Below, in pieces: positions 41,853 to 50,514 of a stretch of 64,000 nucleotides of DNA. Each line of letters opens with the position of its first letter. Position 1 is the first letter of the stretch. The stretch comes from an uncultured Alistipes sp. (GTDB lineage Bacteria > Bacteroidota > Bacteroidia > Bacteroidales > Rikenellaceae), in NCBI GenBank assembly GCA_944321765.1, contig CALUMQ010000001.1, positions 1 through 64,000 of the forward strand, given 5' to 3'. Made by a program: the position numbers and the translations under genes. The notes under the pieces were generated by a model. The model searched no databases. It was not told the origin of the DNA and was given only the letters and a program-made list of their open reading frames with translations.

Positions 41853-43139
41853 ATGGAATCCATGGAGAAACAACCGATCACCGAGAAAGAGCCGTTCGAC
41901 GTGATTGTCGTCGGCGCGGGCGCCGCGGGCCTGATGGCCGCGGGTACGGCGGCCAATGCCGGGAAGCGTGTGCTGCTGCTCGAGAAGATGGAAAAATCGG
42001 GCCGCAAGGTCCGCATTTCGGGCAAGGGGCGCTGCAACGTCACCAATGCGCGTCCGGCCGAAGAGTTTGCCTCGCAGGTGCGCACGAATGCCGATTTTTT
42101 CGCCCCGGCCTTTGCGGGGTTCGACAACCGGGCGACGATGCGTTTTTTCGAACGGCGGGGCGTGAAGCTCGACGTCGAGCGCGGCGATCGGGTCTTTCCG
42201 CACAGCGGCAAGGCGTGGGATATCGCCAATGCCCTTCTGGACTTCTGCGTCGAGAACGGCGTGAAGATTCTCTACGATACGCGCGTCACGGAGATCCTGA
42301 CCCTCGGGGGGCATGTTTTCGGCGTGAAATATATCAACAAGCGGGGCTTCGAACGCAAGGAGGAGTGCCCGCGGGTGATCCTCGCCACGGGAGGCGTGTC
42401 CTACCCGGCTACCGGATCGACGGGTGACGGATACACCTTTGCTGCCGATCTGGGCCATACGATCGAACCGTTGCGGCCGTCGCTCACGCCGCTGGTCACG
42501 ACCCACCCGCAAATTCGCCATCTGCACAAGCTGCTGCTGCGCAACGTCCGCGCGACGCTCTATGTCGACAATACACCGGTTCGCGAGGAGTTCGGCGAGG
42601 TGGGATTCTCGGAGCGCGGCATCGAAGGAGCCGTGGCCCTGCGCATGAGCCGCGATGCGGTCGACGCCCTGATTGACGGACGCCGTGTGAAGATGGTTCT
42701 GGACCTCAAGCCGGCGCTGACGGAGGAGGTGCTCCGCGAGCGCATCGCCCGCGAGCGGGCCGAACTCGCCCCGACGGAGTTTTTCGGCGAACTGCTGCGC
42801 AAACTTGTGCCGCAGCCGCTGGTCATGCCGCTCTGCTACGAGATTGACATCCACTCGAAGACCTACCTTTCGAAGATCACCGACGAGCAGGTGACACGCC
42901 TGATCCGCACGCTCAAGGGGCTGACCTTCCCTATCTCCGACTATGCCCCCTTCCAGTATGCCGTCACGACGGCGGGCGGGGTTCGCTGCGACGAGGTGAA
43001 TCCCCGCACGATGGAGTCATTGAAGGTTCCCGGACTCTATTTCGCCGGCGAGGTGCTCGATCTCGACGCCAATACGGGCGGTTATAACCTTCAGATCGCC
43101 TTTTCGACGGGACGTTTGGCCGGATTGCTTAAAAAGTGA
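41853..43139 (+). CDS. HI0933/BaiN-like NAD(P)/FAD-dependent oxidoreductase
   Basis: 428 aa. An FAD Rossmann motif, DVIVVGAGAAGLMAAGTAA, sits near residue 16, then GRKVRISGKGRCNVTNA, ILATGGVSYPATGSTGDGY and the C-terminal GGVRCDEVNPRTMES...GLYFAGEVLDLDANTGGYN signature. The family includes flavoproteins of largely unknown substrate, among them BaiN in bile-acid metabolism. It overlaps the following gene by four bases. Confidence 0.9.
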   Translation: MESMEKQPITEKEPFDVIVVGAGAAGLMAAGTAANAGKRVLLLEKMEKSGRKVRISGKGRCNVTNARPAEEFASQVRTNADFFAPAFAGFDNRATMRFFERRGVKLDVERGDRVFPHSGKAWDIANALLDFCVENGVKILYDTRVTEILTLGGHVFGVKYINKRGFERKEECPRVILATGGVSYPATGSTGDGYTFAADLGHTIEPLRPSLTPLVTTHPQIRHLHKLLLRNVRATLYVDNTPVREEFGEVGFSERGIEGAVALRMSRDAVDALIDGRRVKMVLDLKPALTEEVLRERIARERAELAPTEFFGELLRKLVPQPLVMPLCYEIDIHSKTYLSKITDEQVTRLIRTLKGLTFPISDYAPFQYAVTTAGGVRCDEVNPRTMESLKVPGLYFAGEVLDLDANTGGYNLQIAFSTGRLAGLLKK

Positions 43140-43657
43140 CGGACGTGCGATTCGGACGCCATACCTTTTCGTTACACCTGCCGGGCCGAGTGGCCAACCT
43201 CGGCAACCGGCTTGCACGGGCCCGTTATTTCCGGGGCCATGGAGTCCATTCGCCGTACGTCTATGCCATCGTCCGCGAGGTCTTCATGCGCCACACGCTG
43301 CTGGAGGGCGACCGCTCGCTCTACGAGACGTTGAGCCGTGCGGGCGTTCCGCATCGTCGTGCCGTGCAGTTGCAGAACCTCGCCATCCATTGCCACTGTG
43401 CCACCTGGTCGCTGAACCGTGCCGATGCCGACCTGTGCGTGGCGCTGCGCGATCTTCCGCGACAGGAGACGCTGGCACTGGTACGTGCGGCTGCCGCCGC
43501 ACGTCATACGGTCGTCGTCATGTCTCCTTACGAGGGACGCGAACGCCAGGCGCTGTGCGCGCAGATCGTTGCCGAACACCGCTCGACGACGGTCGACAAT
43601 CGGGGCTACCTGATCGTATTCAACAACCACCTTCCGAAACAACATTTCCGGATATGA
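43136..43657 (+). CDS. degenerate methyltransferase-like protein
   Basis: 173 aa, GTG start overlapping the previous stop. The N-terminal YFRGHGVHSPYVYAIVREVF and C-terminal end (FNNHLPKQHFRI) resemble the two ends of a Bacteroidota class I SAM-methyltransferase family, but the central nucleotide-binding glycine motif is absent and the protein is shorter than those enzymes. It may be a degenerate or repurposed member. It overlaps the cobalamin adenosyltransferase gene (ATGA), so it is translated as part of the operon. Confidence 0.6.
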   Translation: MTDVRFGRHTFSLHLPGRVANLGNRLARARYFRGHGVHSPYVYAIVREVFMRHTLLEGDRSLYETLSRAGVPHRRAVQLQNLAIHCHCATWSLNRADADLCVALRDLPRQETLALVRAAAAARHTVVVMSPYEGRERQALCAQIVAEHRSTTVDNRGYLIVFNNHLPKQHFRI

Positions 43658-44205
43658 AAATCTATACCAAAACGGGAGACCGCGGTATGACGTCGCTCAT
43701 AGGCGGCGAGCGGGTCTTCAAGAGTGACGAACGTGTCGAGGCCTACGGCACGGTGGACGAACTGACGGCATTTACGGCGTTGCTTGCCGACGAGCTGCGA
43801 GCCGATGCCACGGCTGCGGCGTATGTCGATGATCTGAATCGCATTCTGTCACGCCTGATGAGTGTCGAGGCGATGCTGGCCACGGGAACGTCGGGCAGCG
43901 ACAAGGTGGCACCTCTGCCTGCGGAGGCCGTATCCTGGCTTGAGGAGCGGATCGACGCCATGCAGAGCACCTTGACGCCGATCGACAAGTTCACCCTTCC
44001 GGGCGGACACCGGAGCGTTTCGCTGAGCCACGTCTGCCGGACGGTGTGCCGCCGGGCCGAACGGGCGGCGCTGCGGGCCGATGCCCGCTACGGGGTTGAT
44101 CCAACGGCCCTGATGTGGCTGAACCGCCTTTCGGATTACTTCTATACGCTCGGACGTGCGCTCACGGCCCATTACGGGGTCGAGGAGACGCTGTGGATTC
44201 CCTGA
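43654..44205 (+). CDS. PduO-type cob(I)alamin adenosyltransferase
   Basis: 183 aa. Motifs TKTGDRGMTSLIGGERV (5-21), YGTVDELTAF (31-40), FTLPGGH and RTVCRRAERAALR identify the PduO/ATR family, which transfers the adenosyl group of ATP to cob(I)alamin to make coenzyme B12. The ATG at 43654 overlaps the upstream stop. I saw no cobalamin riboswitch in the leader. Confidence 0.94.
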   Translation: MKIYTKTGDRGMTSLIGGERVFKSDERVEAYGTVDELTAFTALLADELRADATAAAYVDDLNRILSRLMSVEAMLATGTSGSDKVAPLPAEAVSWLEERIDAMQSTLTPIDKFTLPGGHRSVSLSHVCRTVCRRAERAALRADARYGVDPTALMWLNRLSDYFYTLGRALTAHYGVEETLWIP

Positions 44206-44281
44206 TTGTCTGATATTCAGTATATAGGAATCAGTAGCGCTATATTTTTCTTTTTTTTCTTTGAACTTCTTGTTTTTTTTA

Positions 44282-44366: not shown

Positions 44367-44588
44367 ATGTATTGGACGCTTGAACTGGCATCGAAACTCG
44401 AAGATGCTCCGTGGCCTGCGACGAAAGAGGAATTGATTGACTATGCAGTACGATCGGGCGCACCCCTTGAAGTTCTGGAGAATCTGCAGGAGATCGAGGA
44501 TGAAGGAGATATTTACGAATCCATCGAAGATATCTGGCCCGACTATCCGTCGAAAGATGACTTCTTCTTCAACGAGGAAGAGTATTGA
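44367..44588 (+). CDS. DUF2795 protein, target of a 22-bp duplication at its 3' end
   Basis: 73 aa small acidic protein (MYWTLELASKLEDAPWPATKEELIDYAVRSG..., then Glu/Asp-rich, ending FFFNEEEY), fitting DUF2795, a small domain of unknown function. The last 22 coding bases (44565-44586) recur at 45783-45804. Here the stop is TGA, supplied by the inserted DNA; at the distant copy the frame would end in TAA followed by a terminator. The gene therefore keeps its full product after the insertion. Confidence 0.85.
   Translation: MYWTLELASKLEDAPWPATKEELIDYAVRSGAPLEVLENLQEIEDEGDIYESIEDIWPDYPSKDDFFFNEEEY
44565..44586. repeat. left 22-bp direct repeat (attL-like)
   Basis: Exact copy of 45783-45804, inside the 3' end of the DUF2795 gene. 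It contains the dyad TCTTC-N6-GAAGA. At 22 bp it is longer than usual transposon target duplications. Confidence 0.85.
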
Positions 44589-44597
44589 CGCTCATCG

Positions 44598-44614
44598 ATT
44601 CGAATAGTTCGAAT
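44598..44614. repeat. 7-3-7 palindrome at the left end of the island
   Basis: ATTCGAA-TAG-TTCGAAT, 12 bases inside the left repeat. Position and symmetry suggest a recombinase or regulator site. Confidence 0.4.
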
Positions 44615-44617
44615 ATT

Positions 44618-44682
44618 AGGCCATCAAATATCAGCGCGACAAACAATGAGAATTTGTTTGCCGCGCTGGTGTTTTATGGCCT
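44618..44682 (+). terminator. long imperfect hairpin at the left end of the island
   Basis: Arms of about 28 bases (44618-44644 and 44655-44682, from AGGCCAT to ATGGCCT) with a few mismatches. It could terminate the DUF2795 transcript that lost its native terminator, or be a structural end of the element. There is no long T run. Confidence 0.45.
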
Positions 44683-44786
44683 CAATGTTTGGCCATAAAT
44701 AATAATAATATCGTAGAAAAGTTGAAGAAAAACACTATTTTTATAAATTTAAATTACAATCACATAGTAAAATATCAGCCCTCATC

Positions 44787-45635
44787 ATGATTAGAATTTC
44801 TTTTTTTGAAAAATATGAAAAAGACCTTCGATTAAAGTTTCAACGTTTTATTAATGAAGCCAAGCATAATGCACTGGAAGTTTCAGACTTTTTAGTTTGC
44901 CAACAAGGAGGATTTTATAATTGGGAAGGATACCCTTGTATTGGTTTAGGAGAAGTTGGATTAAATAATCTACAAAAAGCACATATCATTGATAATTTAG
45001 GTCCAGCTATATGCACTTCTAATGATAATTATTATAAAGAAAACGGTAACAGATTCTTTAATGGAACAACTGATTTTGAGAGTTGCATAATGAAAGTCTG
45101 CAATATGTATCTCGATATTTGGGAAAATGAGTGGTTTCTTAGAATTTTTAAAGAACTTGTTCTGATAGCCAATGGAAAGCATTATGATTGGGATCTAGAT
45201 TTAAGTAAACTTAAGGATACCGGGAAAGGTAATTTTATTAGAAATGAGATAATCGGAGGCCTTGATACGTACCCATATTTACAAGAAGTAGTAAAAGTTG
45301 GATATAATAGCGATCTTCGTAATGCTGTAGGCCATTCTCAATATCATATCGTACCAGGAGGTATATGGTTTGATAATTTTGGAAGAAATAAATATTCAAC
45401 ATCAAGAGGCCTTTCTTTTGAAGAATGGGAAAAAATAATTATTTACGCTTGGCTTATTTTTAGACTCGTATTCAGCATATTGTATCAGTTGGCAACCACT
45501 ACATTCTTTACAATAGCCCAAAAAACCATATCAGGAGGTGTACCAATTATGGTACCAGACAAAAACGGAACATGGCGTTATCAATATATTTATCCAGATT
45601 CTACCGGTCATGTTTGGAGATTTACAAAACAATGA
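44787..45635 (+). CDS. Rx4H (HEPN-like) island cargo protein
   Basis: 282 aa, AT-rich, the only intact gene in the island. The notable motif is LRNAVGHSQY with Arg178-x4-His183, the pattern of HEPN ribonucleases and abortive-infection proteins; helix-rich sequence precedes it and FEEWEKIIIYAWLIFRLVF follows. No signal peptide. The last residues overlap the start of a second ORF (ATGA). I infer a toxin or phage-defence role from motif and context; no specific family was recognised. Confidence 0.6.
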   Translation: MIRISFFEKYEKDLRLKFQRFINEAKHNALEVSDFLVCQQGGFYNWEGYPCIGLGEVGLNNLQKAHIIDNLGPAICTSNDNYYKENGNRFFNGTTDFESCIMKVCNMYLDIWENEWFLRIFKELVLIANGKHYDWDLDLSKLKDTGKGNFIRNEIIGGLDTYPYLQEVVKVGYNSDLRNAVGHSQYHIVPGGIWFDNFGRNKYSTSRGLSFEEWEKIIIYAWLIFRLVFSILYQLATTTFFTIAQKTISGGVPIMVPDKNGTWRYQYIYPDSTGHVWRFTKQ

Positions 45636-45745
45636 ACAAAATTAAAGAATTGTGTGAATCAAGGATATTTCCCCGTCCACACTTATTCCTTCCATCGCCT
45701 CAGAGCGTCTCAGACGGTACGGTTAGTTTGCGCAAATTTCATTGA
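45632..45745 (+). pseudogene. 37-codon ORF overlapping the cargo gene, probably truncated
   Basis: ATG at 45632 overlaps the cargo stop as ATGA. It begins MNKIKELCESRIF in AT-rich DNA and then changes into GC-richer sequence (PRPHLFLPSPQ...) to a stop at 45743-45745. The change of composition about 40 bases in suggests a second gene of the cargo operon that was cut by a deletion. Confidence 0.4.
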
Positions 45746-45773
45746 TTATTGCATAATGTATTGATAATCAATG
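45740..45773. repeat. 10-bp inverted repeat at the right end of the island
   Basis: CATTGATTAT and its exact complement ATAATCAATG separated by 14 bases, ending nine bases before the right 22-bp repeat; plausible recombinase arm site. Confidence 0.45.
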
Positions 45774-45782
45774 TAGATAAAT

Positions 45783-45804
45783 TTCTTCAACGAGGAAGAG
45801 TATT
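45783..45804. repeat. right 22-bp direct repeat (attR-like)
   Basis: Exact copy of 44565-44586. Read in the DUF2795 frame it ends TAT TAA and is followed by that gene's terminator, so this is the original gene end. Confidence 0.85.
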
Positions 45805-45855
45805 AAGCCTGTTTCGGAGGCAAAAACCTCAAAATACGCCTTTTAAAAACTTTCT

Positions 45856-45882
45856 AATGCGACCTTCGGGTCGCATTTTTTA
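45856..45882 (+). terminator. original DUF2795 terminator
   Basis: AATGCGACC-TTCG-GGTCGCATT followed by TTTTT. It now lies about 1.27 kb from the gene it served. Confidence 0.85.
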
Positions 45883-46001
45883 TGATGAAAAGTGCTTGGA
45901 GAGGAGGCATTTTGCGCACAACTGTGTAAATTTGCAGTACGTGCGGATTTCGATCTGTATGTGTTGATGATCCCGAACCCTTTTATTCAAATCTTATATT
46001 C

Positions 46002-46418
46002 ATGAATACCGCAAATACCCCCAACCTCTCATGTCGTGTGGCGCGTATGCTGTCCGTGTCTCTGCTGATGGCCGGAACCGCGCTTCTTACGGGCTGTAAA
46101 ACTTCGTCCGGGACGAGTGATGGCCCGGTGATCATTGCTGCCAGAATGCACGTAAAAAGCGAATGCGTCGGGGCTTTCAAGCAGCTTGCCGCTCCGTTGA
46201 TCGAGACGACGCGCCAGGAGCCCGGATGTCTTCAGTATGATTTTTACCAGGAGGCCCAGGATTCTACCGTGTTTTTCTTTTACGAGGTATATGCTGACCG
46301 GGCTGCACAGGAGTTGCACTCCGGGAGTGATTACCTTGCGCGTTTTGTGCAGGCGCGTGCTCCCATGCTTTGCAGCCCTTCGGAGGCTACCATCTACGAT
46401 GGGGCCCGGAAACGTTAA
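46002..46418 (+). CDS. antibiotic-biosynthesis-monooxygenase-like (ABM) lipoprotein
   Basis: 138 aa, lipobox LLTGC (Cys32). The mature part is one ABM dimeric ferredoxin-like domain: IIAARMHVKSECVGAFKQLAAPLIETTRQEPGCLQYDFYQ and FFFYEVYADRAAQELHSGSDYL. Related proteins (YgiN-like) oxidise quinols or have unknown substrates; export as a lipoprotein is a variation seen in Bacteroidota. It is a single gene just downstream of the island. Confidence 0.85.
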   Translation: MNTANTPNLSCRVARMLSVSLLMAGTALLTGCKTSSGTSDGPVIIAARMHVKSECVGAFKQLAAPLIETTRQEPGCLQYDFYQEAQDSTVFFFYEVYADRAAQELHSGSDYLARFVQARAPMLCSPSEATIYDGARKR

Positions 46419-46429
46419 ATGAACAGGGT

Positions 46430-46469
46430 GGGATTCAGCCGGGAGAAGGTACTCTCTTGGTTGAATCCC
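46430..46469 (+). terminator. hairpin after the ABM gene
   Basis: 17-base arms with two mismatches or wobbles around AGGTAC, eleven bases after the stop. No T run, so it may be a weak terminator or processing structure. Confidence 0.4.
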
Positions 46470-46617
46470 GCTGTTGCCTGTTCTCCGGATAATTTTCCCG
46501 AAAAGAACTGCCGTCGGACTTCGGGATCGACAGCTTTGTCAAACTGTCTCAGATGTTGTTTCTCGCATCCCGAGCCGGAAGATTCCGTGTCCACCCACCG
46601 CCCCGGCCGGATAAAAC

Positions 46618-46654
46618 GAAAGAAGCGATGACCGTTTCGATCATCGCTTCTTTT
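46618..46654. terminator. terminator of tRNA-Lys (bidirectional)
   Basis: AGAAGCGATGA and complement around a 9-base loop directly 3' of the tRNA on the minus strand, with T/A runs on both sides. Confidence 0.75.
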
Positions 46655-46655
46655 C

Positions 46656-46731
46656 TGGTACCCCCCCAGGGGCTCGAACCCTGGACCCCAACATTAAGAG
46701 TGTCGTGCTCTACCAACTGAGCTAGAGAGGC
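46656..46731 (-). tRNA. tRNA-Lys (CUU)
   Basis: Minus-strand cloverleaf: acceptor GCCTCTC pairs with GGGGGGT (three G-U pairs), D arm GCTC/GAGC, anticodon stem CGACA/TGTTG with loop CTCTTAA (anticodon CTT), T stem CAGGG/CCCTG with TTCGAGC loop, discriminator A and encoded CCA. Confidence 0.95.
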
Positions 46732-46756
46732 ATCAATCATTATCTGATTGCGAGTG

Positions 46757-46764
46757 CAAAGGTA
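46757..46764 (-). promoter_or_regulatory. promoter -7 box TACCTTTG for tRNA-Lys
   Basis: TAnnTTTG match 25 bases upstream of the tRNA 5' end. Confidence 0.6.
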
Positions 46765-46870
46765 GCTACAATTTTTGATATTCCAAATAAATCGGCAATT
46801 TTTTTTAATTTTTTTGCGATTTTTTCGTTACCCCTTCTGTTTTTGCCCGTCCTGATTCTGTTGTCGACGG

Positions 46871-48169
46871 TTACTCCAGCTGCAACGGATCGTTGTTCCA
46901 TTCGCCGCCGCCATCGGGGTAGATCAACGGGCGGGAATCCTCGAACCGTTTCAGATTCAGATAACTTTCGTAGAGATTGATGCCGTTGGACGACTGCCGG
47001 GCGAGCGAAAAGGCGATGACCGACGGGTGCCGCTTGGTCGTATGGTAGCTGTTTGCCGTGCGTTCGATGTATGCCGACTCCCATTGCGGGTCGTTGGACG
47101 GATTGCCGCCGATGCGTCGCGAGTCTCCGCTGCGCCGGGTGTCGATGGGCGCCTGGGCGATGACGAAGAGCCCCCAACGGTCGCAGGAGTCGAGCAGCGG
47201 CTCGGAAACGGGTCCGGGCAGCAGTTTGAAGGTGTTGTATCCTTCGGCATGCATAGCCTTGATTTCTGCGGGCGAACTGTTTGCGGGCACTTCGCGAACG
47301 CGCAGTGTCCGGGGCTCGCCGTTGATCGACAGTTGCTGCTTCTCGACCGTAGCGGTGCGGAATCCCAGCGGCATCTGCATATACTCTTCGAAACGACCTT
47401 CGTACTGCGTCTTCAGCTTGAGGGTGTAGAGCGTGGGGCTCTCCGGAGCCCAGAGCGAGTCCTTGGGAATACGGGCAACGAAGCGCACGGTGTCCTCACG
47501 GCGCATGTCGAGCGTAATCTCCTTGTATCCCGTGGCGGCATTCAGTCCCGTGGGGGAGAACAGATCATAGCAGATGCGCGAAGTCCGGGGATTTAGCGCG
47601 TCGCTTTTCACGACGATAGCCACCTCGGTGGTTGCATCGCCATCTTCCGAGAGACGCGTACGGACTGCCACGTCGCGGATGTGCATCGTGGGCTGACTCA
47701 TCACGCAGGCACGGCCGATGGCGGGTGCCGGATTCTCCTTCCAGCTTTCGAGCGGTGCCGTGGGCGAGGGCTGTGCGAGGATCACCTCGATCCGGTTTCG
47801 GCCTTCCTCCACCAATTTGGTGATGTTGATCGATGCCGGGGCGTTCGCATCGGCGTTGTATGCCGCCGTACGGCCGTTGATCCGCACTTCATAATCTCCC
47901 GAAGCCTGATCCAGACAGAAGAATACCTGCCGGTTGATCCACGCGAAGGGTACGGTGAACTCCGTGGCGAATTCTCCGCCGTTCTGCTCCCAGTTGTTCA
48001 GACGGGTCATGTAACGATTGTCGGCTTCGGCCGCCGTCTCCGCCGAAGTTTCGGTGGGGTGTACGGTCAGGGCGCCGCGGGGCGCTTCGAGCCCCTGGGA
48101 GGGGGTGTATTCCTGGGCCTGTATTCCGCAGAGGGAAAAAATTGTCAGTATCGAAAGGATCGTGCGCAT
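46871..48169 (-). CDS. GH2-like protein lacking the usual catalytic Asn-Glu
   Basis: 432 aa exported protein (signal ending near GIQAQ). Order of regions: sugar-binding jelly-roll domain (about 30-165), Ig-like domain (about 170-280), then a short TIM-barrel-like part. The segment that in GH2 reads SLGNES is SLARQSS here (in HPSVIAFSLARQSSNG), so the acid/base Glu is missing, and the protein stops soon after, before the nucleophile region. It may bind rather than cleave. The ATG at 48169 begins the signal peptide. Confidence 0.75.
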   Translation of the reverse strand: MRTILSILTIFSLCGIQAQEYTPSQGLEAPRGALTVHPTETSAETAAEADNRYMTRLNNWEQNGGEFATEFTVPFAWINRQVFFCLDQASGDYEVRINGRTAAYNADANAPASINITKLVEEGRNRIEVILAQPSPTAPLESWKENPAPAIGRACVMSQPTMHIRDVAVRTRLSEDGDATTEVAIVVKSDALNPRTSRICYDLFSPTGLNAATGYKEITLDMRREDTVRFVARIPKDSLWAPESPTLYTLKLKTQYEGRFEEYMQMPLGFRTATVEKQQLSINGEPRTLRVREVPANSSPAEIKAMHAEGYNTFKLLPGPVSEPLLDSCDRWGLFVIAQAPIDTRRSGDSRRIGGNPSNDPQWESAYIERTANSYHTTKRHPSVIAFSLARQSSNGINLYESYLNLKRFEDSRPLIYPDGGGEWNNDPLQLE

Positions 48170-48221
48170 TCGTTTCGTATATTTGTCCTGCGTAAAGGTA
48201 CGTATTTTTTTCGATACTGCG

Positions 48222-48668
48222 ATGTCGGAGCTTCCGAAACTCAATTTTCCCGCCATACGCCTGCGGGCGCGCCGCCGCGAGGGGGTGGTTGAGGTATGGG
48301 ATGCCCTGCGGGGCAGCTACCTGGTGCTGACTCCCGAGGAGTGGGTTCGCCAGCACCTGATCGCCTACCTTACGACGCATTGCGGCGTGCAGCCCACGCG
48401 TATTGTCGAGGAGTACGCCGTACCGTTGAACGGGCAGCCGCAGCGGGCCGACGTGGTGGTTGTGGACGATCATGCCGCTCCGCTGCTGCTTGTTGAGTGC
48501 AAGGCGCCGGGCATTCCCGTCGGACGCCATACGCTGGAGCAGGCCGTTCGCTACAATTCGGTGCTTCACGCGCGCTACATAGTGCTGACCAACGGCCTGA
48601 AGCACTACTGCTGCGAACAGCGAGACGGGGTCTATGTGCCGCTCGACGGGTTTCCCGTCCTTTCCTGA
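48222..48668 (+). CDS. HsdR N-terminal-like (PD-(D/E)xK) domain protein
   Basis: 148 aa. The segment RADVVVVDDHAAPLLLVECKAP carries the D...ExK nuclease-fold signature of type I restriction HsdR N-terminal domains, without the helicase part. It is divergent from the GH2-like gene, and no methylase or specificity subunit is nearby. Free-standing proteins of this type are common in Bacteroidota with no established function. ATG at 48222 chosen because upstream frame lies in the divergent signal region. Confidence 0.82.
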   Translation: MSELPKLNFPAIRLRARRREGVVEVWDALRGSYLVLTPEEWVRQHLIAYLTTHCGVQPTRIVEEYAVPLNGQPQRADVVVVDDHAAPLLLVECKAPGIPVGRHTLEQAVRYNSVLHARYIVLTNGLKHYCCEQRDGVYVPLDGFPVLS

Positions 48669-48704
48669 TTCCGCGGCCCCGCCGTTTCCCGAAAGAAAAA
48701 AGGT

Positions 48705-49445
48705 TCAGAGCGTCTGGAAATTCCGCTCAATATACTCCTGAAAGGCCTCCTTGTAATTCTCCCCGATGGGTATATACTCCTCGTCGTTGAGGTATACGCG
48801 TCCCTTTACGAAGCTGCGTATCATCTTCAGATTGACAATGTAGGAGCGATGCACGCGCATGAAGAGCTCCGAGGGGAGTGCGGCTTCCATGTTTTTGAGC
48901 CGGAAGAGGGTGGTGATGGTCGAGCCGTCGGCCAGGTGCATGCGGACATATTCCCCCTCGCTTTCGAGATAGACAATGTCGGCGATTCGTACGAGCGACA
49001 CCTTGTAGTCGGCCTTCACCGAGATGTACTCCTTGTCTTTGGGGAGAGCTTCGGAGGGGGTCTCCTGTGCGGCCCGGCGGCCGTTGCGCAATTCGTAGAG
49101 CGATTGCGCCTTTGCTGCCGAGCGGCTGAACTCCGCGAAGCTGAAGGGCTTGAGCAGATAGTCCACGGCGTCGAGCTTGAACCCCTCGATGGCATATTCC
49201 GAATAGGCGGTGGTGAAGATCACCATCGGACGGTCGGAGAGTGAACGAACGAAGTCCACGCCGTTGAGATCGGGCATGTTTATGTCGACGAAGATCAGAT
49301 CGACCTTCAGCCGGATAAGTTGCTGCTGGGCTTCAAGGGCGTTGTTGCATGTTGCGACGAGTTCCAGATAGGGGATCTTCGCAATGTAGCCTGTCAGCTG
49401 GCGCAGGGCCAGCGGTTCGTCGTCTATGGCGATACATTTAAGCAT
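48705..49445 (-). CDS. LytTR-family response regulator
   Basis: 246 aa. Receiver domain with phospho-acceptor Asp54 in IFVDINMPDLNG, conserved Thr in FTTAYSEYA and Lys in LLKPFSF, then a LytTR DNA-binding domain (about 140-240, YLESEGEYVRMHL and RVHRSYIVNLKMI). It would bind promoter DNA when phosphorylated. It overlaps its histidine-kinase gene by 8 bases, which indicates that they form a pair. Confidence 0.94.
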   Translation of the reverse strand: MLKCIAIDDEPLALRQLTGYIAKIPYLELVATCNNALEAQQQLIRLKVDLIFVDINMPDLNGVDFVRSLSDRPMVIFTTAYSEYAIEGFKLDAVDYLLKPFSFAEFSRSAAKAQSLYELRNGRRAAQETPSEALPKDKEYISVKADYKVSLVRIADIVYLESEGEYVRMHLADGSTITTLFRLKNMEAALPSELFMRVHRSYIVNLKMIRSFVKGRVYLNDEEYIPIGENYKEAFQEYIERNFQTL

Positions 49446-50514
49446 GCAGGGTCGGAATTACGAGTTTTACGGTGTAGGTATTTTGGTTTTCGGAGATCTG
49501 GAGTGAATAGTTCTCCTCTCCGTAGATGAGAGCGAGCCGTTTGCGGACGTTTTCAAGCCCAATTCCGGTGTCGTGGCGCGGGGATGTCGTCGGGTGCTTG
49601 CTGTTTTCGATGACGCTGCAGACGGTGTTGTCGGCGTATTCGATGTGGAGTTGTATGAACGAGGGGCTGTTGTAGCTCACGCCGTGCTTGAAGGCGTTTT
49701 CAACGAAAACGATCAACAGCAGCGGGGGAATGGAGACCGATTCCGGAAGGTTGTGCGGATACTCCACGCGGATGTCCACGGCGTCGGTATAACGTATGCG
49801 CATCAGTTCGATGTAGTTCTTCAGGAATTGAATGTCCCGATTCAGGGAGATTCGTTCGTATCCAGAGTCGTAGAGCACGTAGCGCATCATTTTCGAGAGC
49901 TCAATCACGGCGTTTTTGGCCGATTCGGTGTCGATGTCGATCAGCGCATGGATGTTGTTGAGCGTGTTCATGAAGAAATGGGGGTTGATCTGATACTTCA
50001 GATAGTCCATTTCGGCCTGGAGGTTCTGGCGTTTGAGCACCTCCATTTTCTGTTCGTCGCGCATCGACTGATAGATGAGCTTGATACCCGTGTTGGCTCC
50101 GGTCATGAAGAATCCCAGCACGACGTTCCAGTATATTTCGAGGTTCGAGAAGGACGCCTTTCGGTAGGCGTCGAGTTGTTCGGGATCGGCCTGGTTTTTC
50201 ATGAGCAGACTGCCGGTGATATGCTCTTCGTAGATCTGCACGATCCAGAACACGACGATAATCAGCGAGATATTGCACAGGAGGTATTTCACGTATTTCC
50301 TGCGGAGCATGTATCGCGGAGCGATGAAATAGTTGTGTATGAGGAAGATGATCAGATATGGTGCGATCTGTCTCCAGGCGATGAGGACATTCTCGAGATT
50401 GATGTGCATTTCGGACATCATCTGCGAGTTGAGCACCGGCACGAGGATGATGGCCGACCATACCATGAGGTATAGGAGGTTTTCTCCGATGGCTTGTTTT
50501 CCCTGGATCTTCAT
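49438..50514 (-). CDS. LytS/YehU-type sensor histidine kinase
   Basis: 358 aa. Four membrane helices (about 12-30, 50-66, 78-95, 128-146), then a His_kinase domain with YQINPHFFMNTLNNIHAL (His179), an ATP-binding N box FVENAFKHGV and GIGLENVRKRLALIYG. It has no extracellular sensor domain, so the signal is probably membrane-related or internal. A -7 box ends five bases upstream of the ATG. Confidence 0.94.
   Translation of the reverse strand: MKIQGKQAIGENLLYLMVWSAIILVPVLNSQMMSEMHINLENVLIAWRQIAPYLIIFLIHNYFIAPRYMLRRKYVKYLLCNISLIIVVFWIVQIYEEHITGSLLMKNQADPEQLDAYRKASFSNLEIYWNVVLGFFMTGANTGIKLIYQSMRDEQKMEVLKRQNLQAEMDYLKYQINPHFFMNTLNNIHALIDIDTESAKNAVIELSKMMRYVLYDSGYERISLNRDIQFLKNYIELMRIRYTDAVDIRVEYPHNLPESVSIPPLLLIVFVENAFKHGVSYNSPSFIQLHIEYADNTVCSVIENSKHPTTSPRHDTGIGLENVRKRLALIYGEENYSLQISENQNTYTVKLVIPTLHA

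Follow-up and report, generated by a model that had tools for sequence, protein, structure and literature searches.

Introduction

How did an AT-rich segment with a single long gene come to occupy the 3' end of a DUF2795 gene, and is it what is left of a larger element or a unit moved by an integrase encoded elsewhere? The question is raised by a stretch of 64,000 nucleotides from an uncultured Alistipes sp. (GCA_944321765.1, contig CALUMQ010000001.1, positions 1 to 64,000), referred to below as the window. An initial annotation had described the segment as a minimal, recombinase-free island and had allowed for both origins. In the present work, the locus was compared with its counterparts in 180 genomes of the genus, which are cited by handle (G for genomes, L for loci) where they have to be told apart.

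Results

The island and its boundaries

The features discussed below are, in window coordinates:

44367..44588, plus strand: DUF2795 gene, 73 aa, the integration target (PF11387, E 9.2e-18)
44565..44586, plus strand: left att core, 22 bp, in the DUF2795 3' end (exact repeat)
44587..45782, no strand: island between the two cores (33% GC; missing from the junction of gene and native flank in 8 relatives)
44627..44673, plus strand: strong hairpin, probable terminator for the DUF2795 gene (fold energy and siblings)
44787..45635, plus strand: cargo gene, 282 aa, with HEPN-like RNxxxHS motif (intact ORF; motif residues invariant)
45709..45740, plus strand: right arm-type repeat, putative integrase binding site (score 49; aligns with other right ends)
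45741..45782, plus strand: right-end conserved sequence, terminating in GATAATCAATGTAGATAAAT (pattern over 45763-45804 in 8 of 180 genomes)
45783..45804, plus strand: right att core, 22 bp (exact repeat)
45805..45880, plus strand: native DUF2795 3' flank and terminator, hairpin 45856-45877 (adjoins the gene in 8 relatives; terminator-like site)

The sequence TTCTTCAACGAGGAAGAGTATT was found in the window search at 44565-44586 and again at 45783-45804 with 0 mismatches and a start-to-start spacing of 1218 bp, which confirms the exact 22-bp repeat reported earlier. At up to 3 mismatches, the window contains no third copy (maximum number of matches in 100 shuffles, 0), and the sequence is absent elsewhere in the 2.31-Mb assembly, which is 88.6% complete. 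The repeat had been taken for the last 22 bp of the gene; the identity is exact, but the repeat consists of the final 21 coding bases and the T of the stop codon. The 1196 bp between the cores have a GC content of 33%, and the flanks (42000-44250 and 46000-50000) range roughly from 49 to 64% in 500-base windows. The insert is thus AT-rich, as had been noted, and the one intact gene ascribed to it is the 282-aa ORF at 44787-45635, the next ORF of at least 60 aa being a single opposing 61-aa frame. No Pfam match at E <= 1 was obtained for the island ORFs, and these two frames include no integration, excision, conjugation or mobilization genes. The island is bounded by attL and attR, as indicated by the exact cores, by the right flank that joins the gene in relatives and by the right-end pattern. 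It lies inside a 302.7-kb contig of a draft assembly of 40 contigs.

The 3' end of the target gene

The DUF2795 gene was matched in 159 of the 180 genus genomes, and 28 of the matches listed, the own one included, reach 100% protein identity. Its present stop codon, TGA, is derived from the island, in agreement with the earlier proposal that the island rebuilds the 3' end of its target. Behind the second core, the bases AA complete a TAA codon, which is followed by a terminator; this arrangement, also described in the initial annotation, matches the sequence located 3' of the gene in relatives. The region 44620-44700 folds at -37.6 kcal/mol (z -7.0), a value equalled by 0 of 200 shuffles. A second, smaller hairpin (44674-44698) stands directly 3' of the main one, where siblings carry the left arm-type site. 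The left end of the window island belongs to a group of 27 loci, of which 26 were folded, L126 being too short; judged singly, all 26 left ends, the window's included, form a long hairpin, and these hairpins are of two different sequence types. RNAalifold returned no common structure for the 26 left ends, among which the two types fail to align. Because the island hairpin has no perfect T-run and the terminator scan flagged the minus strand only, its role is read from context: it is probably a terminator supplied to the DUF2795 gene. The stop codon and the strong hairpin of this gene now come from the island. All Rfam matches across the region were far under the gathering scores.

The insertion site in related genomes

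The right flank of the window lies directly 3' of the DUF2795 gene in 8 of the 180 genomes (G176, G149, G007, G154, G143, G008, G156 and G151), with 71-94% identity over 92-120 bp at the junction (in G149 only 329 bp are visible). Any match to this flank was obtained in 24 genomes, those beyond the eight being partial or located elsewhere. The predicted empty site is therefore present in relatives, in a comparison that is cross-species: for the upstream flank, the best-scoring relative (G007) is 84% identical. Two of the eight, G007 (L061) and G176 (L111), are not strictly empty, because a tyrosine integrase ORF begins 164 bp past the stop, behind an otherwise native terminator; this element may have captured the native terminator or may use a nearby site.

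Occupied sites, for which the initial annotation had proposed a search next to DUF2795 genes, were found as well. In G137, G138 and G179, an island right end similar to that of the window island stands in front of the right flank. The pattern of right end plus core (45763-45804) was matched in 8 of the 180 genomes, the own genome among them, and its reversed control in 0. The right-end family can be aligned over about 100 bp inside the island, and its signature also marks a 10.15-kb island in G016, in which a type I restriction system and an integrase, the latter truncated, were recognised. A degenerate core pattern, restricted to TAA/TGA endings, was matched in 93 of 180 genomes (reversed control 0). 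Two viral matches of a shorter pattern were rejected as coincidental ends of unrelated phage genes. Moreover, tandem sites, at which a further left end comes after a right end, were observed in G001, G067, G122, G129 and G153. Stacked islands are seen at the tandem junctions L139, L213 and L251 (G153, G129), and G153 is a one-contig genome. In G010 (L212) and G153 (L251), the right end comes after a TetR-like and an ankyrin-like gene (by eye) that are the same in both; these genes are cargo common to the two, or they belong to the host and adjoin what remains of a right end.

At L138, L144 and L157 (G002, G160 and G155), an island-type left end with its hairpin stands directly in front of two genes, one sigma-factor-like (by eye) and one for a membrane protein. 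The sigma-factor-like gene has relatives downstream of DUF2795 in loci of the G037 type too (L037, L039, L045), and the hairpin in G002, G155 and G160 may be a host terminator of the same type or the scar of a lost island. Because of this context, a left end of this type alone is no proof of an island. The genus thus has an integration hotspot at the DUF2795 3' end. The survey drew on 150 genomes, which supplied 151 stretches containing the gene (two from G172); 111 of these extend at least 2.5 kb downstream and 88 extend at least 9 kb. Because the stretches are short (at most 20 kb) and many contigs end within islands, counts of absence are unreliable and short islands are favoured.

Closed islands and their genes

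An island was regarded as closed when the gene end recurred with no more than 4 of 20 bases mismatched and with its GARGARGARTAY terminus intact, followed by TA or TG. Looser second-core matches inside coding sequence (L058, L073 and the second in L153) were dropped under this stricter GARGARGARTAY rule. In the stretches read, 12 gene-bearing islands closed:

Small: G000 (window), 1218 bp; G031, 754 bp; G103, 1491 bp; G086, 1824 bp; G079, 2089 bp; G067, 2205 bp
Large: G122, about 7.8 kb; G016, 10.2 kb; G054, 11.7 kb; G153, 12.4 kb; G066, 13.1 kb; G128, 13.4 kb

A tyrosine integrase was detected in G016 (truncated), G054, G066 and G153 and in none of the other 8, although recombinases of other classes could escape the search, above all in G128 and G122, since it used a single profile grown from the G016 protein and ORFs of at least 80 aa. 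In G014 and G168, a second core copy stands 18-20 kb off, and the interval extends beyond the stretches read. In G110 (L038), a diverged second core (4 mismatches) 142 bp past the stop encloses about 160 bp that are hairpin-like and contain no gene.

Six of the closed islands, all between 754 and 2205 bp, have one long gene:

Window: HEPN-like protein
G031: small protein with signal-like start (by eye)
G086 and G103: BspA-type LRR protein
G067: GmrSD_N protein
G079: Big_2 protein

Any further ORF of at least 60 aa within the six is short or overlaps the main gene, and G079 adds 93-97-aa frames alongside. The gene starts 202-239 bp past the stop in five islands and 520 bp past it in G079, and it occupies the position where siblings have the integrase. 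The G086 and G103 islands are 85% identical at the left and 95% at the right, and they seem to be a single island present in two species. The right end of G067 is 77-80% identical to theirs and its cargo is unrelated; the pattern of this right end was found in 4 of 180 genomes. Likewise, one-gene G079 and the 13.1-kb, integrase-bearing G066 have identical 30 bp before the core. Among the larger siblings, G016 carries a type I and G128 a type III restriction system, the G128 island also holds a Mob_Pre relaxase-like fragment, and the first gene in G177 is an adenine methylase.

Integrases and arm-type sites

In the 27-locus group, a tyrosine integrase ORF lies near the left end at 11 loci, its longest-ORF start being 38-281 bp past the stop (the G168 integrase is in pieces); of the 16 other loci, at least 4 are too short to tell. 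The sibling integrases have the Arm-DNA-bind_5/SAM_5/Phage_integrase architecture of tyrosine recombinases, and the intact one of G153 matches PF00589 at 3.1e-21. In G016 (L118), a truncated integrase spans 235-1380 bp past the stop, and its C-terminal tail resembles by eye that of the G128 Mob_Pre protein, which suggests that a deletion joined two genes. The own genome yielded a single match to the sibling integrase at E <= 1e-10, 27% identical, and a helper integrase could be missed at this threshold in an assembly 88.6% complete.

An arm-type consensus was made by eye from the right ends. The right arm of the window reaches a local score of 49 against a shuffle maximum of 20. At the left (first 200 bp), 7 of the 11 integrase-bearing elements and 5 integrase-less elements were tested. 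The repeat beat the best of 200 shuffles in all seven of the former, by 2-8 points, and in none of the five latter, window island included. The left end of G177 resembles the arm repeat by eye yet fails to beat the shuffles.

The cargo protein

The cargo of the window island gave no significant Pfam, NCBIfam or PDB-sequence match. Its relatives were found at 34 genome loci, with 17-25% identity to the aligned members; by record title, most of the hosts are Bacteroidota and a few are Cloacimonadota or Ignavibacteria. The gene is sporadic: matches were obtained in 4 of 268 family genomes, one of which is regarded as chance, and in 3 of 395 genomes of the phylum, the own genome being counted in both. 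The match in G215 (E 7e-4) was set aside as chance, as it contains two internal stops and overlaps a long ORF of another gene. No match was found in phage records or viral contigs, and one plasmid matches weakly.

HEPN domains have a conserved R-x4-6-H motif. The residues R178, N179, H183 and S184 of the cargo, which fit this pattern, are invariant in 31 of 31 aligned homologs, and RNxxxHS is present at 33 of the 34 homologous loci, the remaining one, L203, being interrupted by a stop. A HEPN family is absent from the Pfam/NCBIfam matches of the 31 members at E <= 0.1, and a weak PADLOC match to Cas13a (4 of 31 members, best 5.6e-4) stands beside other weak matches. The AlphaFold2 model is confident (mean pLDDT 89), and no Foldseek match at E <= 0.001 was found for it in PDB or BFVD. 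The motif suggests that the cargo may be a HEPN RNase.

The neighbourhood of the homologs was surveyed through 96 proteins, at most 2 per side, around 31 of the 34 loci. Neighbours match AbiE (AbiEii, AbiEi), type I specificity, type IIG, reverse transcriptase and Cas1 families (among the first 25 of 198 PADLOC families), and they also include sugar-metabolism and housekeeping genes. In G038 and G169, the cargo relatives adjoin AbiE-like genes (by eye). This partly defence-like neighbourhood is only suggestive; the cargo perhaps has an anti-phage role.

Discussion

The most probable reading, and one that we hold with reasonable though incomplete confidence, is that the window contains a decayed, integrase-less, att-flanked island of the CIME-like kind at a DUF2795 3'-end hotspot. 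To judge from the siblings, an element with a tyrosine recombinase would have inserted by recombination within the 22-bp core, whereby the gene end would have been replaced by the identical end of the element together with its stop codon and hairpin terminator. Given the undetectable left arm site, a deletion may then have removed the left arm-type site and the integrase, so that one cargo gene and the right end would have survived and all else would be gone. The cargo, probably an RNase of the HEPN type, would have been retained, perhaps as an anti-phage gene. In its present state, the island would be unable to move, except where a sibling integrase came to act on it in trans or where a sibling element landed alongside and carried it in cis. 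Of the two origins put forward in the initial annotation, the remnant of a larger element is favoured, because the left arm site is undetectable, and movement in trans is the less supported half of that proposal. Half of the 12 closed gene-bearing islands have one long gene, and this weighs against decay, being more regular than random decay suggests; the regularity is tempered by the fact that short islands were the easiest to close in stretches of at most about 16 kb.

An unlikely but substantial alternative is that the small islands are non-autonomous one-gene cassettes, each composed of a target 3' end, a terminator, the gene and a right end. They would be moved in trans by integrases that sibling islands encode at this site, and they would stack in tandem in the manner of integron cassettes or SCC elements. 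This alternative would account for six islands of 754-2205 bp with varied cargo, for the gene start at the integrase's place in five of them, for the right end that G067 has in common with G086/G103 in front of an unrelated gene, for the 30 bp that G079 shares with integrase-bearing G066, and for the tandem junctions in five genomes. However, the left arm site of the window island is undetectable, the own genome yields a single distant integrase match, the right-end pattern is, as an exact match, absent from viral contigs, and the ease with which short islands close applies here too. In its boldest form, this alternative would give Alistipes species a docking port in the 3' end of the DUF2795 gene. 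Integrase-less cassettes of one gene, each with its own terminator for the upstream gene, would be moved there in trans by sibling tyrosine integrases and stacked in tandem, a system similar in function to integrons or SCC and unrelated to both; this extension is offered tentatively and is doubtful.

A small att-flanked island that carries defence cargo is typical of satellites, and this anatomy is what would speak for a remnant of a prophage or phage satellite instead of a plasmid-like or conjugative element. The cargo, however, is unmatched in phage records and viral contigs, the right-end pattern is missing from viral contigs, and sibling G128 bears a Mob_Pre relaxase-like fragment, which makes this origin improbable. 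An assembly artefact, a transposon target duplication or a coding coincidence is scarcely credible: the draft state of the assembly and the 2 matches of the degenerate 22-mer in viral contigs, at the ends of unrelated phage genes, are outweighed by the position of the island within a 302.7-kb contig, by the closed islands found at this position in 11 further genomes, by the 0 matches of the reversed control pattern in 180 genomes, by a repeat that at 22 bp is long for a target duplication, and by the finding of no inverted repeat pairing the two island ends.

The decayed island can be set beside several known systems. SCC elements insert at rlmH/orfX by means of serine Ccr recombinases. Like SCC and pseudo-SCC at rlmH, the DUF2795 islands leave a 3'-end target intact, occur in tandem and in part have no recombinase; unlike them, they use the DUF2795 gene, and the siblings employ a tyrosine integrase. 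The available part of one description of streptococcal CIMEs gives their definition and their tandem accretion at the site (PMC5704250), and that of another puts CIMEs that carry cargo at 1.2-13 kb and microCIMEs at 130-220 bp (PMC7563491). As far as these sources go, the likeness comprises att flanks, a content without integrase or transfer genes, a conserved-gene 3' end, same-site tandem accretion (here in relatives) and a size within the range of cargo-bearing CIMEs (PMC7563491); in the same way, the gene-free repeat pair of about 160 bp in G110 resembles microCIMEs. The phylum and the target gene differ, the island supplies a hairpin to its target, and islands with one long gene are frequent among the closed ones; the likeness is one of anatomy, and descent from a conjugative or mobilizable parent is conjectural. 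Integron cassettes and CALINs, in the part of the account available (PMC11389934), are similarly integrase-less units potentially moved in trans and arranged in tandem arrays, whereas the present unit brings a hairpin and its site is a fixed chromosomal gene end. The cargo may be compared, by motif, with the HEPN RNase defence protein Tha, for which the accessible portion of the report (PMC11087260) indicates an R-x4-H type motif in a solitary protein; unlike Tha, the cargo has no significant Pfam, NCBIfam or PDB match. Among the papers listed, the literature search found nothing on this hotspot or on DUF2795 as an integration site; in the library searched, DUF2795 is mentioned in 2 papers, which by title are proteomics. 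Recombinase-less att-flanked islands are already known, and the island is filed as CIME-like; the host group and the target gene are new.

Summarizing, the results name a recurrent integration hotspot in a gut genus, at which one-gene islands and larger islands with restriction systems are found at one place. The question whether integrase-less islands are relics or are moved by a helper becomes directly testable here with small pieces of DNA. Moreover, an undescribed HEPN-like protein family is flagged as a candidate defence gene.
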